Assembly: GCA_035610835.1 (NCBI GenBank)
Contig: CM069447.1
Coordinates: 38,600,057 to 38,664,056, forward strand
Reading direction: 5' to 3'
DNA length: 64,000 nucleotides
Source of the DNA: Ophiura sarsii
Taxonomy: Eukaryota; Echinodermata; Ophiuroidea; Amphilepidida; Ophiuridae
Shown here: piece by piece, positions 639 to 64,000 of the stretch
How positions within the stretch are numbered: position 1 is the stretch's first letter
Layout of the letters: the number at the start of each line of letters is the position of its first letter
Program-made: the position numbers and the translations under genes
The notes under the pieces: model-generated
What the model saw: only the letters and a program-made list of their open reading frames with translations
Told to the model about the DNA's origin: nothing
The model's database searches: none

Positions 639-39793
<39,155 letters not shown>

Positions 39794-56930: not shown

Positions 56931-57170
56931 CAGCGTACATGGACACCACAAAAACTTGCATTAAACGTTGGGTTCTTATCATGATGGTGAAAAGGACGTC
57001 GTAGGGAAAGCTGTTGAGTGAAGGTCCCAATGAAGCGTCAGCAGATGTATGAATGTATACCATACTAAAGAGGCGTATATAAGGCACACTAGCGCCGCAA
57101 TGGCCATATCCAATTTCAATATGAGCCGCCCACCCCCGCACACAGTTACTATTCCTATACACGTCCGTAA
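56765..57170. repeat. Direct duplication of about 240 bp upstream of the RAG2-like gene
   Basis: Two copies share GACGTCGTAGG/GGGCGTCGTAGG, then TACCATACTAAAGAGGCGTA, then AGGCACACTAG.GCCGCAATGG (56817-56860 and 57060-57105). They lie within 400 bp of the RAG2-like start and could be part of a transposon end, but no CACTGTG-type terminal repeat is evident. Confidence 0.65.
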
Positions 57171-58487
57171 AAAAAATCGCCATTTTGGATTTTACCGGAC
57201 AATCACTAAAAATAATAAAATGTAATATTTAAAAGATTTAAAACTATTATTATTATTGCTTGAATTTGTAAAACGCAGCACATAAATTATGTATCATAAT
57301 ACAAAATACTTGAACGTGGATCCTGTGACACAGCGGGTCATCTGCCTAGTAACATCGTTGTATCACAGCGCTCAAACGTAGTTGATAGGAACCGATCATA
57401 ACAACACAAGCGATTCATCTGCTAATTGAAGTTTTAATCTGTTCAATTTCTTATTTGTCTACATTTTAAAGATTTTATCATGTTCCACTTGCCAACATGA
57501 CTTCAGTATTTTCAGATTGTACATTGAAGAAGATTTTTATCGCCAGTTCAAGCGAGATATATCCAGCTCCACGCGGCACTTGTTGGAATTCGTCGGACAA
57601 CAAAGTACTTTTCTTCGGTGGATCGAATTTTCATGACGATTTCCCAATATCATACACTCACGGTGCACGACAGGGGAACAGTTTTAAAAACTCAACATCA
57701 GGGAGAACTAAAACAAGACTAATAAGACCAAGTGTTGGCAATGCCGGCATTGAACACGAATATCGTGTGTATTTATTCGGAGGGCAGAATTGGATGAGAT
57801 GGGGCCAGAATGCCAGTGATGATTTCGTAACTGGATACTTTAAAGGGACATCTTTCTGTTAGGAAACCGTGCAGCAGCGGGGCTACACACCGTCTCCGAG
57901 ATTCGGACACACGTTTACCAAATGTGGTGGTCAACTGGGCGTTGTGTATGGAGGTTTCGATTTTGTCGGCTCATCATTTTGCCATGTCAATACAAACTTG
58001 TACTTTTTTCCTTAATTGATTTATCATGGCGAACGAGACCATCCAATATTCCACCTCTAGCTCAACACTCATGCACATATGTTGGACAGAACACATTCAT
58101 TATTATTGGTGGGTGCGTGCTGGATAGAGACAATACCATGATTCGACCGGGAGATGTCCATGTTGTACAGTATGGTGGGACTGCGCACCCAGAGAACTTT
58201 AATGTCAAGTCGTACAGCCATTCAGCTGAGCAGGTTGGAGATTTTATTTACATATTTGGTGGCTTGAAATCAACATCCGAGTCATCACAGACTAAACCAT
58301 CGCGTTACTTGCACAGACTATACTCCTGCCATCCATTTTTGCCGGAAATCTGAACATTGTATCGGACATTATTGATGAGCCATTTCAGCCGTGTTATGTA
58401 GTAAAACGAGGACTTCGAACCTTACAACTATTTAAGAATTCCGATCACTCTGTTTGGGAATTTACAGGCACTACATCGGCACCATTG

Positions 58488-58710
58488 ACTGTCCATCGTG
58501 ACCGTGTTCCTGAGCCTCAGACACACGATGCCGAAGAAGATCCTGCTGAGCCAATGCCAACCGAAGTCCATCGTGACCGTGTTCCTGAGCCTCAGACACT
58601 CAATGCCGAAGATCCTGAGCCAATGCCAACCAAAGTCCATCGCGGCCGTGTTCCTGAGCCTCAGACACATGATGCTGAAGAAGATCCTGAGCCAATGCAA
58701 ACCGAAGGAG
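58488..58710 (+). repeat. Three in-frame coding repeats in the RAG2-like hinge
   Basis: Copies begin at about 58491, 58566 and 58635, each encoding VHRDRVPEPQT-like residues and then an acidic stretch ending in EPMPT-like residues. Spacing of 75 and 69 bases keeps the frame. They lengthen the acidic hinge between propeller and PHD finger. Confidence 0.85.
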
Positions 58711-58858
58711 ATAATCCTGCCATAGCAGAAGAACCCATTTCTGTTGATGATCAGGCTGAGACTGATAGTGATACTAGTTGTGGCCTCGAGATGGATCAGG
58801 GACAGCCATATGCACTAGAATCCAGTGATGAAGATGACGATGACCAAGATGAACTTTT

Positions 58859-58999
58859 TGTAACAATGCGAAATGTAAATATGCAGATTATTCAGAAGAC
58901 AGAACTGCAAAACTGAAATGGGTCCAATGTGTGTCATGCTATATGTGGAATCATTCAACTTGCACCGAAGTAAATGGAAAATGTTTCTCCTGCTATATG
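58859..58999 (+). other. PHD finger of the RAG2-like protein (shifted frame)
   Basis: The frame beginning with the Cys codon at 58859 reads C-NNAK-C, then WVQCVSCYMWNHSTC, then GKCFSC. This is C-x4-C ... C-x2-C-x4-H-x2-C ... C-x2-C, a full Cys4-His-Cys3 set with the usual Trp two residues before His. Vertebrate RAG2 PHD binds H3K4me3; whether this one could is unknown. Confidence 0.8.
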
Positions 59000-59002
59000 T
59001 AA

Positions 59003-60960
59003 TGGCTTAAATATGTTAAAGGTCTGTTACCTGCCTGTAGCAACAAGAAGAACTTTAATAGATTGCAGTAAAATTGTAGACCTATTAATCAAAAGGAAAA
59101 TGCAGTAAGGCCACAAACAAAAAAGCTTGGGTCAGACAGACTTTTTTTTTGAAAATTGTAAGAAAATTAAAATATTATCTTTTACCCAGGCTTTAATTGA
59201 CGGTCACAAATTTTGAGAAAAAAAAGTTTAAATTTTACGGTAATATTTTCACCCTTCACTTTTCATTTTGACCCATCACTTTTTTCCCAAGGGTGAAATA
59301 CCCTTGGGGAAAAAATTGAGTGAAAACACTGTATTGTCGTCGAGTGCAATTGCGGGCATTATACGATGCGTTCTACATCCTCATCAAAAGTGTTAACTTT
59401 TTTTTAGTAGTTCATTATGCACGCTCAGAAACAGTAAAAACAACAACAAGTAAAAACCTAATCTTGTTCTGGTTATAATTGATCATTCATCATGAATAAT
59501 TTGGAAAAACGGAACAATAAAAGTGCGTACTGAATATTGTGCACCAAGTTCCCGGATGTGCGTCCAATATTCACAACATTTTGCCGTCTAATATTTTTGG
59601 TGCTGCACAGCAGATGTGCGCGTGAGAATATATTTGCTGAGAATGTCATATTATGATTTTATCAAAACAATCCGTTATATAAATAATAATACGGTAATAT
59701 TGAATGTCTTATTTTCGGGTGATACAATATTTTTATAGCTCGTGCAATATATATTATAGTTGCATCACCCTAAAAGCCATTCAATATTTTGTAATTCATG
59801 TATACTATTATCATGCGTATTGTTTGTTACTGTAGAAGGAAATAAAAGATGAAAACTGATAGTGTGATTGCTGGAATACGGTGTGATATGGATGGGCATG
59901 CACACTTTCATCATCGTACATGTAGTGTATTCTGTCAAAAATCACTTTTCCATCTCTATGTTCTCTAAAGTACAAGGTCAAAATCAAAACACCATACTCT
60001 TCTTTTTTTCATTTTTTTTAATTTATTATTATCTTTGTGTCAAGTGTACAAACAATTTATAATATTGCATTTGTATTTCGTCTCATTTGTTGATCTGTGA
60101 ATAAAACGGCATATTTTTCTAGAGGTGAATAACAGTTTTGTGTGCACTGATATATTAAATGCATTTTATGAAGTTCAATTTTTTATTCTTTAGGTTTCAT
60201 TTACAATTATAATTCCCTCCCAATTGTCTTGATACCCTATTAAAAGAGAATGTACGTACATGTTAATACAAGAAATAATTGCTTACGGCTTAGGCGACAA
60301 AAAAAACGTGTTCTACAGGCAAATGGACTTCTCAAGATACATATTGGTCGGTCGGCTGCTTTTTAAACTAATTTTCCCCTCAAAAAAGACCGTCCAAATC
60401 AAACATTGGTAAAAATATTTTGAGACATGAACATTTTGTTCACCTATTTTTAAAAAATGGGTTATTTGGCCTATGGGGCCATAGAACAGAGTTGTTGTCG
60501 CCTTTATTCTTGTAATATCATATTCTTTCCTTGCATAAATCTACAAGTCCGATAACATCGCCGAAGGCGTACAGGTTAAAAGTGTCCTTTAGGTCCAATA
60601 CATACATGTAGAAGGGATGGCAACTTGCATGCATCAATCAATCTTTAAAATGATGGATGGATGCATGTGCACTTTACTGTCTGGGTCCTAAATAATGTTC
60701 ACAATTTACAAAACAAATGGCAGTCATTATTCCCTGTTAGAGGCAACAATTCCTTTTTAAATAACCGGTAACCTTCAAAAAGCTACATTCAAATTAAACT
60801 AATATGATAGTCTAGATTTGTAATTGAACAAACACATTGAAGCGGCGTATTGCGTACATTAATTGCGTGAAGCGTGCACAAACACAAGTGTGATAATTCA
60901 AGGCGTGATCATCGTTGGGCTGCGTAATGTTGTTCATTTATCAATCTTACTTTAATAATA
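59003..60960. other. Spacer between the converging RAG-like genes, left part
   Basis: No gene recognised. An AATAAA at 59516-59521 could serve the RAG2-like transcript. A short hairpin (TTTTTTCCCAAGGGTG / ACCCTTGGGGAAAAAA) lies at about 59280-59316. The rest is AT-rich. Confidence 0.5.
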
Positions 60961-60964
60961 GCTT

Positions 60965-61650
60965 TCATGTCATTGAAAATATACAGGGATTCCTCAAATT
61001 GCTAAAACCCATTGGGCAGCTATTACTATACAATACAACCAACATGTATAATAGCTGTTGCCCTTTCATGTCATTGTATACAGGGATTCTTAAAATTGCA
61101 TTAACTAAGGAATAATAGCTGCCCTTTGTTTTCATGTCAAAAAACCCTTTCCAAGCCTCGTGTTGAATAAAGTTATTCTTTAAATTGCTACAATCCATGT
61201 TTTCATGTAAAAAAAACACACTTTCTCAATTAATGTGTACAATGAATAATAGCTGCCCTTGGTTTTCAGGTAAAAAAACACTTTCCAAGCCTATATGTTG
61301 AATAAAGGTTTCCTAAAATTGCTACAATCCACGGGGCAGCTATTTTTCTGCAATTTATGTGTACAAGGAATAATAGCTGCCCTTTGTTTTCGTGTAAATA
61401 AACACACTTTCTAAGCCTCATGTTGAATAAAGGGATTCCTAATATTGCTACAATTCATGGGGCAGCTATTTTTCAACAACAATGTACATAGAATAATACC
61501 TGCCCTTTGTTCTCATGTCATTTACCAGCCACAATTTAAATAAGCTTATGCCTAAGAATGCTCAAGATGCATGGCATGGCAGCTATAATTATATATGTAC
61601 AAGTGTACAATTGAATAATAGCTGCCCTTTGTTGTCTTGTCTAAAACGGA
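60965..61650. repeat. Minisatellite, unit about 100-130 bp, about six diverged copies
   Basis: Units share GAATAATAGCTGCCCTTTGT, TTTCATGT(C)A, CACTTTC.AAGCCT, GTTGAATAAAG, ATTGCTACAATCCATG and GGGCAGCTATT. It occupies the spacer between the RAG2-like and RAG1-like genes. Confidence 0.8.
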
Positions 61651-62059
61651 TGTTCAAAGTAGAAATAAAATTATAATAATAATACAAAAATACAAAAGAA
61701 ATAAGTGGAACAAAATGTTTAAACAATTTAATTCAATGCAACATGTAAACAAAAATTGAAGTGAACCTGATCTTTATATTAATATTTCAGATGAGAATAT
61801 TTTCAATAGCACCAATGTGAGTGTTACATTCTTCAGCTGCACATGGTTTGAATGTCACATGTCATTTTGTGGAAAATGACTGCGCCATGTATTGTATGTA
61901 TTGTTGGAATTACGTCCATAGCATACATACTACATGTACACATTTTCAATTTCTCACTTACGAAGTCGGATCGTCCATAATTTTCGCATTATAACAATAT
62001 AATACAAAAGATATTAAAGAAAAAGTAATTACAACATGTCAACACATTTCCTAAAGGTG

Positions 62060-62270
62060 TATGTTCCGATCACCTTTTTTTTGGCTATGATTTCTTTTTC
62101 ACATGATATTTTTATATCAGAAAAATACCCATATTTTTCTCATTTAACTGTAAAATCTTAGGGGCCATAGAAATGCTTCATTTAGAAATGATGGGCTAAA
62201 ATGTGGTGAATTACTGCCAAAGGTAGTTAACCACCAGCCAGTTTGTGTACTACTCAATGGGCAAAATTCT
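62060..62270. repeat. Dispersed repeat, second copy of the 11.7-kb repeat
   Basis: It matches 11700-11930 (CTATGATTT, TTTCTCATT, GTGGTGAATTACTGCCAAAG, GTACTACTCAATGGGCA). Noncoding in both places. Confidence 0.75.
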
Positions 62271-62676
62271 TGTGACCAGCAATCAGAACATCTTCCTTTA
62301 AAACTACATTATTGCGAAATTGGAACGGGAAAGAGTTGCAAATTATTATAGAGTAGGTAATACACACTGATGAGTTGATAACACTACTGCATGTACATTT
62401 CCTTCGCCTTTGCGCATACCGCATACATGAAAAATACAACAAAAAGAAATGTCAAGAATTCGGCATTAAGATGGCGAAAAAATAAAACCCCTGTTCTACA
62501 TGCAGTAAACAGACCGCTTTACAAGGGTCGGTAGGGCAAACTTTGTGTGTGCTTTTTTCTTCAAAAAATTCAGGATTTTTAAGTGAATTTTCAGCAATCA
62601 AAATCAAACAAGTTAAACAAATTTTAAACATCAATTATTTTTTCAAAATGGGTCGGTCGGGCCAGTAGAACAGTGT

Positions 62677-62682
62677 TTTATT
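62677..62682 (-). promoter_or_regulatory. Polyadenylation signal for the RAG1-like gene
   Basis: AATAAA on the minus strand, 74 bases after the tail stop codon at 62756-62758. Position and spacing suit the 3' end of the RAG1-like transcript. Confidence 0.5.
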
Positions 62683-62755
62683 TACACCATACTAACATTT
62701 TAAAGTCTGTCACAAAGAAGATTTTTTTATGGGTAAAATACCAGTTCCTTGCAGT

Positions 62756-64000
62756 CTAAGCATTTAAGCAAGTAATGCGCTTGTGGCCTTCTTGACCACA
62801 CTTCGAACATTTCTGACACAGTGGCTTTTTATTGGCCTTTCCTGTAATGATTTCATCGCATATAAAAGCCAGTGAAACTTCATAATGTCTCTCAACTCAT
62901 ACTTTGTGTTCTGCCGTGCGCACATCTTTCTAAGCATGCGAAACAGCTTGTTTCCATGCTCATTGGGCTCACTGGAAAAAGCCCCAACAGAACCATATCT
63001 TTCAATGAGTTCTGGGACATGGGCAAGAAATTTGTGAACATAATTTGGCATATTGTTTGCAATGTAGCCAAAATTTTGCTTGACCATGTCCATGAATTGA
63101 GCAGCATTTGCGGCATATTGGTCTACCAATTCTGGACAACTTTCCAGTGGCCTGGTGGCTTTCCAGACATGTTTTAGCTTTACATACTGCTCAATCAATT
63201 GGCGAACAACGCTACAGCGGTGTGGATCAATCATGGACAGCACTATCTCTGTGCATGCAGGGGTCATAAGGAAACGCGAATAGTTGCCAGGTTGCATTAC
63301 TCGTCTCTGTAGGCCAGTCTTCTGGCGCAAAGCCTCATCGAGTTCATTCTCCACTTCTTGCAGCCGTTGTTGATGATCCTTTTTGGCCCATTGCATTACT
63401 CCGGCAATGTAGATCTTTTTAAACCAAACAGCGGTATTTATCTCGCAGTGCAGCGTATCCAAGTGCGGGACATTGTGAATAAATGGATCGGCTTTGACAC
63501 CCTTTGAATTACGTGTTAGTGTTCTGTATGTCTCCTTATTGTCATTTTGAGTTCTTTCATCAATAAGTTTCTCAGATCTGTTCTGTGATCGGGAAATACG
63601 ATACTTAAATGGGTCCTCATACGCTTCCGTCCGTTCTGGTGGATTCGCACATTGTGCACAGGTATTCGGAAGATGACCCTGCCAACCCCACTGCCTTCCT
63701 TTCCAGTTTCTCGTCATACATAGTGGACAAAAAGTTCATCTTAAACTTCCATGGCACCCGTCCATTATGCATGTATGTCAAAACCGCATCTTGCAGATGA
63801 TTCCTTTCTTGTAGCACTGGCGTTGTCATGGCAGTAAACGCGAAATAATCATTTTCATCTGCCAGTGCTACAAGAAGGGGACGACAGTTAAGATGTGAAT
63901 TTGGTTTATCTTCCCTGAATACAATTGTTTCGCCGTGTTTGATATCCATGACACAAAAGGAGAAGCGTAACGCTTTATCCGCCAACTTATCTTCAGATTG
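62756..64000 (-). pseudogene. RAG1L: RAG1-like recombinase/transposase, C-terminal half; frame interrupted, runs off the right edge
   Basis: RAG1 and RAG1L are DDE-type recombinases/transposases related to Transib. The window opens inside the catalytic core (LADKALRFSF) and reads down the minus strand. Visible are MYDEKL at about 63713, where Asp matches catalytic Asp708 of vertebrate RAG1, exactly 19 residues before the zinc-binding C-x2-C (63647-63658); PHLDTLHCEIN; HKFLAHVPELIER with the zinc His pair; and NEHGNKLFR, where Glu (62959-62961) matches Glu962. KMCARQN and HWLLYAMKSLQ follow. Asp600 would lie just outside the window. One frameshift coincides with an ACGGACGG duplication (63627-63634). 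A second, at an A5 run (62826-62830), separates the body from the tail motif CSKCGQEGHKRITC. The stop in the tail frame is at 62756-62758. Similarity to vertebrate RAG1 is clear across about 370 residues. Decay and sequence error are both possible. Confidence 0.93.
62768..62809 (-). other. CCGHC zinc motif of the RAG1-like C-terminal tail
   Basis: The 14 codons read C-S-K-C-G-Q-E-G-H-K-R-I-T-C, exactly C-x2-C-x3-G-H-x4-C. This motif is known in the tail of invertebrate RAG1L and Transib transposases and is absent from vertebrate RAG1. It lies one frame away from the body of the gene. Confidence 0.8.

Follow-up and report, generated by a model that had tools for sequence, protein, structure and literature searches.

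Of all known transposons, those of the RAGL-A family stand closest to the recombinase by which antibody and T-cell receptor genes are assembled. In their 'missing link' paper in Mol Biol Evol, Martin et al. 2023 reportedly found complete elements of this family, with an acidic hinge, in Ptychodera flava and in echinoderms. Here we analyzed a stretch of 64,000 nucleotides of the ophiuroid Ophiura sarsii (the window, G000:C7:38600057–38664056 on contig CM069447.1, in a genome of 1.57 Gb and 748 contigs), at the right edge of which a RAG2-like gene (RAG2L) and a RAG1-like gene (RAG1L) converge. With a probability of roughly 0.85, we read this locus as a broken RAGL-A element, in which RAG1L faces a RAG2L made of kelch repeats, an acidic hinge and a PHD-like end, and which was likely a cut-and-paste transposon once.

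Family names follow PMC7204232, in the accessible part of which RAG_A unites vertebrate RAG with the RAGL_A of P. flava. Our literature search returned nothing on RAG of Amphiura filiformis or of brittle stars, and within the available portions of the papers RAGL-A was named only in PMC7204232 (as 'RAGL_A', from P. flava). In a published model (PMC9435367, available part), the RAG2 hinge was gained as one of the steps of host domestication, and a preprint (PMC11844651, available in part) describes hinge and PHD as 'only present in jawed vertebrates'. The locus described here brings together an acidic hinge, a PHD-like end, a RING and the RAG1 N-terminus in an invertebrate element that still has M at RAG1 position 848 and the CCHC tail.

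The convergent gene pair and its breaks

RAG2L lies on the plus strand (57497–58999) and RAG1L on the minus strand, where it ends at 62756, the tails facing each other across 3.75 kb (from 59002 to 62756). This agrees with the preliminary description of this DNA, which had a kelch-PHD gene and a RAG1 core tail to tail at that distance. The first part (59003-59910) of the stretch between the tails (59003..62755) is also present in a second copy on contig C6. Throughout, C-numbers and L0xx denote contigs and loci of the O. sarsii genome, P00xx relatives in protein databases, and positions above 64000 are window-equivalent coordinates taken from the C7 DNA to the right of the window edge.

The minus-strand frame of RAG1L runs from an ATG at 69125 (G000:C7:38669181) to 62756, with its C-terminal part inside the window (62756..64000), and is ordered from N to C terminus as importin-binding domain, RING, zinc stretch, RAG1 core and CCHC tail. 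The RAG1 model PF12940 (cut-off 25 bits) matches it in three pieces of 68, 126 and 191.7 bits from N to C, the 68-bit piece and part of the 126-bit piece lying beyond the right edge. Beyond that edge we also found the RAG1 importin-binding N-terminus (PF12560, 40.6 bits, cut-off 23.3), the RING (PF00097, 28.1 bits, cut-off 21) and, just past it, D600; a search to the right for the Asp600 region and the N-terminal zinc domains had been suggested. Inside the window, the middle piece of the core (63635..64000) holds D708 and the pair C727/C730, and the C-terminal piece (62836..63660) holds the H937/H942 zinc pair and E962, so that the Asp708 and Glu962 equivalents and both zinc pairs already reported are present on alignment; the CCHC tail (CTT*) stands in a shifted frame at 62756..62854. 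Residue numbers follow alignments to mouse RAG1, and in an alignment of 16 RAG1 and RAG1L rows the window keeps D600, D708, E962, C727, C730, H795, H937 and H942. When the C-terminal piece was compared with PDB, all 16 sequences at E <= 0.001 were RAG1 or RAG1L (best E 2.8e-53), and best hits outside RAG1 and Transib, which the preliminary description had named as speaking against its proposal, did not appear.

In the same alignment, position 848 is M in all 14 invertebrate rows, the window included, and R in both vertebrate rows. Position 649, presumably a site with a role in restraining transposition, is V in 6 family-B rows and E in the 2 vertebrate rows; E is also found in L005, P0047 and P0052, a third A-side lineage, and Q in P0048, P0049 and P0050, while the window has H and the C296 element, described below, is gapped. 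We take 6oem to be RAG1 with E962Q and 6xnx to be RAG1 with R848M, and their letters do differ at these positions.

RAG2L begins at ATG 57497, the start found before; its kelch repeats are followed by an acidic stretch and a PHD-like end, and the stop lies at 59000-59002. In the read-through, the kelch-repeat part (57497..58475) matches PF13418 with 40.5 bits (cut-off 21.6). The acidic hinge (58476..58862) has 39 D/E and 7 K/R in 129 amino acids, a net charge of -32, and contains a 69-bp tandem repeat (58491-58707, 3.0 copies), of which we counted by eye three units in the window and four in the C6 copy (L026). The PHD-like zinc segment (58874..58999) shows C4HC3 spacing by eye and remains below the PF00628 cut-off. 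Of the earlier kelch-PHD call, the kelch part has a profile match and the PHD part rests on the zinc spacing.

Both genes are broken, a point absent from the preliminary description, which had the gene identities and the layout right. Compared with the open C6 copy, the window RAG2L has a TAG stop (57860-57862), and three frameshifting indels (near 58.01, 58.32 and 58.85 kb). It also lacks two in-frame segments, one being a hinge unit of 69 bases. In RAG1L, a TAA stop lies at 68649–68651 and the reading frame is shifted near 68.31, 64.27, 63.65 and 62.85 kb. A long interspersed nuclear element (LINE), whose reverse-transcriptase frames occupy 64799-67791 (L010:856-3848, +; PF00078, 68.5 bits), splits the gene between RING and core; the linker where the LINE sits is continuous in protein P0048. 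The intact RAG1L and RAG2L frames that an active member needs are absent from the window copy and, judged from its sequence, this copy is dead, neither protein being predicted to be made any longer.

A second copy, a left end and the family tree

Searched with RAG2L, the genome yielded a single further close copy, on C6, and a distant match (30%) on C5. The C6 copy (L026, G000:C6:27352428-27355456) aligns to window 57131–59910 with 2687 of 2758 aligned bases identical (97.4%), and its RAG2L lies within an open frame of 540 codons (27352834–27354453), 531 from Met, with 530 codons used as search query. Past the equivalent of 59910 it runs into a palindromic repeat, and no RAG1L was found beside it in the 17 kb fetched. 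The homology of the two copies begins at CACCCC (57131), and the flanks beyond are unrelated; since the copies share this start and differ outside it, the left end of the element is fixed (57131..57167, CACCCC followed by CACACAGT). Heptamer-like CACAGCG at 57329 and 57364 was considered as an end and rejected, as both lie inside the element. To the right of the pair, a repeat beginning GGGGGTCATTCC (69192-78436; L010, L031) starts 67 bp upstream of the RAG1L ATG and also adjoins the C6 copy; its two inverted arms of 1.06 kb, 97.7% identical and 7 kb apart, lie at 69363–70419 and 77384–78436.

The two RAG2L copies differ by 13 synonymous and 8 nonsynonymous changes in a comparison of 492 codons, one codon being left out because of a stop, giving a synonymous divergence (dS) of 0.041, a nonsynonymous divergence (dN) of 0.007 and dN/dS of 0.17 (Fisher P 8e-5). 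RAG2L thus stayed under purifying selection until recently, over most of the time after the two copies separated, and the window copy was disabled late. For the C296-type RAG1L against its relatives, dN/dS was 0.22–0.41 in four comparisons.

The RAG1L read-through found six database proteins, namely P0048 (ENA, 1069 amino acids, 63% to the window RAG1L), P0049 (A. filiformis, 51%), P0050 (46%), P0051 (43%), P0052 (P. flava, 36%) and P0053 (33%). In a careful tree of 30 rows, drawn from the 59 of a quick tree (P0003, 98.8% identical to P0001, was left out of both), the 14 rows of the A side separate from the other 16 with support 100/99, and the quick tree divides in the same way (16 versus 43 rows, SH-like approximate likelihood ratio test (SH-aLRT) 99); both trees are unrooted. 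The A side holds 4 vertebrate RAG1, 5 rows of the window clade, C296/L004 and L005/P0047/P0052, and the other 16 rows hold the deep pair P0046/P0053 together with ProtoRAG, P. flava P0011, sea urchins, sea stars, bivalves, C6 and L006. The trees place the window RAG1L on the vertebrate-RAG (A) side, outside the ProtoRAG (RAGL-B) side. A ProtoRAG-type layout, as proposed earlier, is right for the convergent pair, but the tree side is that of vertebrate RAG and the copy is a fossil. We do not claim a sister-group relation between C296 and vertebrate RAG1, for which support was SH-aLRT 84 in the quick tree and only 76/14 in the careful tree, and the careful tree does not settle the branching order of the window clade, C296 and vertebrate RAG1.

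In this genome, relatives of the window-type RAG1L were found on C12, C3 and C4 (52-67% protein identity) and on C11 (82% DNA identity, N-terminus only), the last giving no right boundary. P0049 has no near-identical match here (best 52–67%). Relatives from A. filiformis were found at 38–55% identity for the window type, the L005 type and the B type, and none was found for the C296 type.

Weighing the readings

Several results weigh against the view that the locus is a former RAGL-A transposon. No right end, no terminal inverted repeat and no target-site duplication was found: exact inverted matches between the flanks, scoring of CAC…GTG pairs and a scan for recombination signal sequence (RSS) and ProtoRAG heptamers gave no right partner, and the left end had no inverted partner in any other fetched locus or in ~15 kb to the right. 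Genome-wide, the left end with up to 3 mismatches had 2 matches in forward and 0 in reverse orientation, and a control pattern gave 0 and 2, which puts the chance level at ~2. The second terminal repeat that the preliminary description expected was hence not found in the flanks, in ~15 kb to the right or by the genome searches, which found only two copies of the left end. The RAG1 tree was built without an outgroup. On the RAG2L side, the PHD-like end reaches 16.4 bits against the PF00628 cut-off of 24, the Pfam scan of the whole read-through and of the intact C6 copy returned no PHD family, and neither of them reached the RAG2 model PF03089; as this model had zero matches genome-wide and zero in 14 controls as well, that search is uninformative either way. 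The intact C6 RAG2L had LZTR1 as its first PDB match (7e-7), with RAG2L second (6.7e-6). Finally, as P0048 is a protein, an intron at the site of the LINE is conceivable instead.

The missing right end would also suit a segmental duplication, in which the stretch shared by C7 and C6 was copied and the RAG pair is resident, possibly domesticated, and not mobile. Such an origin is unlikely: it is in line with the lack of an inverted end and of a target duplication, with the two left-end copies only and with a second copy without RAG1L, but the homology ends exactly at CACCCC between unrelated flanks, RAG and Transib ends as a rule begin with CAC (PMC7204232, accessible part), and relatives of the window-type RAG1L are spread over several chromosomes (C12, C3, C4, C11). 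The earlier proposal that this is, or was, a RAG-like transposon is supported for a former element by the RAG1 matches and the gene order, and transposition of the element is likely.

The CCHC tail and M848 are common to the window and to family B, so that a ProtoRAG-type element had to be considered; we give it very little weight, because the window falls on the A side with 100/99, has H at 649 where 6 B rows have V, and carries an acidic hinge that is missing from the one B-type RAG2L examined.

It is just as improbable that the kelch gene is an ordinary host gene standing by chance beside RAG1L. The PF03089 result and the rank of LZTR1 for the intact copy would fit a host gene, yet the top PDB match is amphioxus RAG2L both for the window read-through (E 5.6e-5) and for the C296 kelch gene (1.7e-4), RAG1L faces a convergent kelch gene at each of three diverged loci (window, C296 and C6:60.26 Mb), and published RAG2L genes escape standard searches, according to the accessible part of PMC7204232. 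The kelch gene is probably RAG2L, given that it is convergent to RAG1L, has an acidic hinge and a PHD-like segment at its end, and has counterparts in this arrangement at two other loci, although the signal is weak. The RAG2-like identity first given to it accordingly agrees with the best match of the read-through, but not with the intact copy, for which LZTR1 ranks first and PF03089 is not reached.

A working or domesticated RAG1-RAG2 pair, with breaks that are assembly errors or introns, would accord with purifying selection on RAG2L and is hardly credible, since the RAG2L stop and three frameshifting indels occur in an assembly that has an open copy, RAG1L has a stop, four frame changes and a LINE, and frames of 971 and 955 codons are open elsewhere in the same assembly.

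Other elements of the genome and comparison with known systems

The RAG1 model PF12940 run on the genome matched 54 stretches, grouped by eye into ~25 places, 14 of which were fetched whole or in part. A second A-side type (C296:72170-80434, L011-L013) has an open RAG1L of 971 codons, 936 amino acids from Met, which scores 432 bits with mouse RAG1 versus 179 bits with amphioxus RAG1L, has M at 848 and ends without a CCHC tail. Its convergent partner is a kelch gene that has an acidic hinge (39 D/E in 104 amino acids) and a PHD-like end recognized by eye only, with no Pfam PHD; the kelch part looks incomplete, and an upstream exon is likely. C296-type relatives on C4, C1 and C2 are fragments that share RAG1L sequence with C296, the C4 copy also short repeats and the C1 copy also the downstream array and stretches at C296 88–89 kb, and no element ends were found in them. 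In a C296-type RAG1L copy on C4 (L004, L018; C4:53147183-53149310), a segment of the core has five matching places, of which four are 381 bp apart. A third A-side type is found at L005 (C6:26.95 Mb), L021 (C7:56.39 Mb) and L023 (C6:76.43 Mb), with P0052 and P0047 (A. filiformis) as kin.

The B side includes L014 (C6:60264415-60269635), with an open family-B RAG1L of 955 codons (60264415–60267279) that has the CCHC tail and is convergent to a kelch gene with a PHD above the cut-off, 9 residues from the last blade to the PHD and no acidic hinge. Taken together, the window, C296 and L014 data therefore give two hinge-bearing types on the A side and one B-type RAG2L examined without a hinge, in a small sample. 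A 477-codon frame (C6:60275953-60277383) adjoins this family-B pair, and in it we recognized by eye the C-terminal stretch of a 555-codon plus-strand frame of the window (38126-39793), which looks like a ZU5/death-domain host gene. Elsewhere in the window, 20007-21137 and 22596-25850 hold a long TTC-rich simple repeat that causes a skew and then an array of ~155-bp units.

By analogy with RAG and Transib, RAG1L would nick the DNA and form hairpins at CAC ends, pasting the element elsewhere, and RAG2L would stabilize RAG1L on DNA. The hinge may restrain target capture, acting as a brake as in vertebrate RAG2, and the PHD-like end may read histone H3 lysine 4 (H3K4) methylation, as RAG2 of vertebrates and of sea urchin has been shown to do in the accessible part of PMC8355894, which also reports that R848 and the hinge together suppress transposition >1000-fold. 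The same genome holds a hinge-bearing A element and a family-B pair with a PHD and without a hinge; therefore, the order of the domestication steps is testable by single-part swaps. Known anti-transposition features number three. We suggest tentatively, at somewhat less than an even chance, that such brakes are older than antibodies, as the A-side hinge occurs in two lineages and E649 in a third, with 848 still M. If this is true, two of the three features predate vertebrates, R848 and the loss of the CCHC tail being the vertebrate steps, and the hinge is a fast-evolving, repeat-built segment that was still selected in a recently mobile family.

Among the known systems, sea urchin SpRAG1L/SpRAG2L is alike in being an echinoderm pair with a PHD (PMC8355894, accessible part) and differs in that SpRAG1L (P0025) is on the B side of the tree. 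ProtoRAG of Branchiostoma belcheri (RAGL-B) has the convergent RAG1L and RAG2L, the CCHC tail and M848 in common with the window, but it belongs to the other side of the tree and its RAG2L lacks both hinge and PHD, according to the accessible part of PMC7204232. Jawed-vertebrate RAG1/RAG2 is alike in its A-side position, its tail-to-tail order, the RAG1 N-terminus, RING and core, the RAG2 hinge and the PHD-like end; the window, on the contrary, has M and not R at 848 and H and not E at 649, keeps the CCHC tail, has both genes broken and has a second copy with a common left end. The closest likeness is to the RAGL-A of Martin et al. 2023, which reportedly also has an A-side RAG1L convergent to a hinge-bearing RAG2L in an echinoderm-type host; compared with it, the window copy is broken and the number of 69-bp hinge repeats varies between copies. 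The window copy itself is previously unseen, as far as database searches show. In conclusion, the kind is already known, having reportedly been described by Martin et al. 2023, and the window holds one more RAGL-A member, for which our analysis adds its left end, a hinge built of repeats and variable between copies, recent constraint, and the presence of several A and B lineages in one genome.

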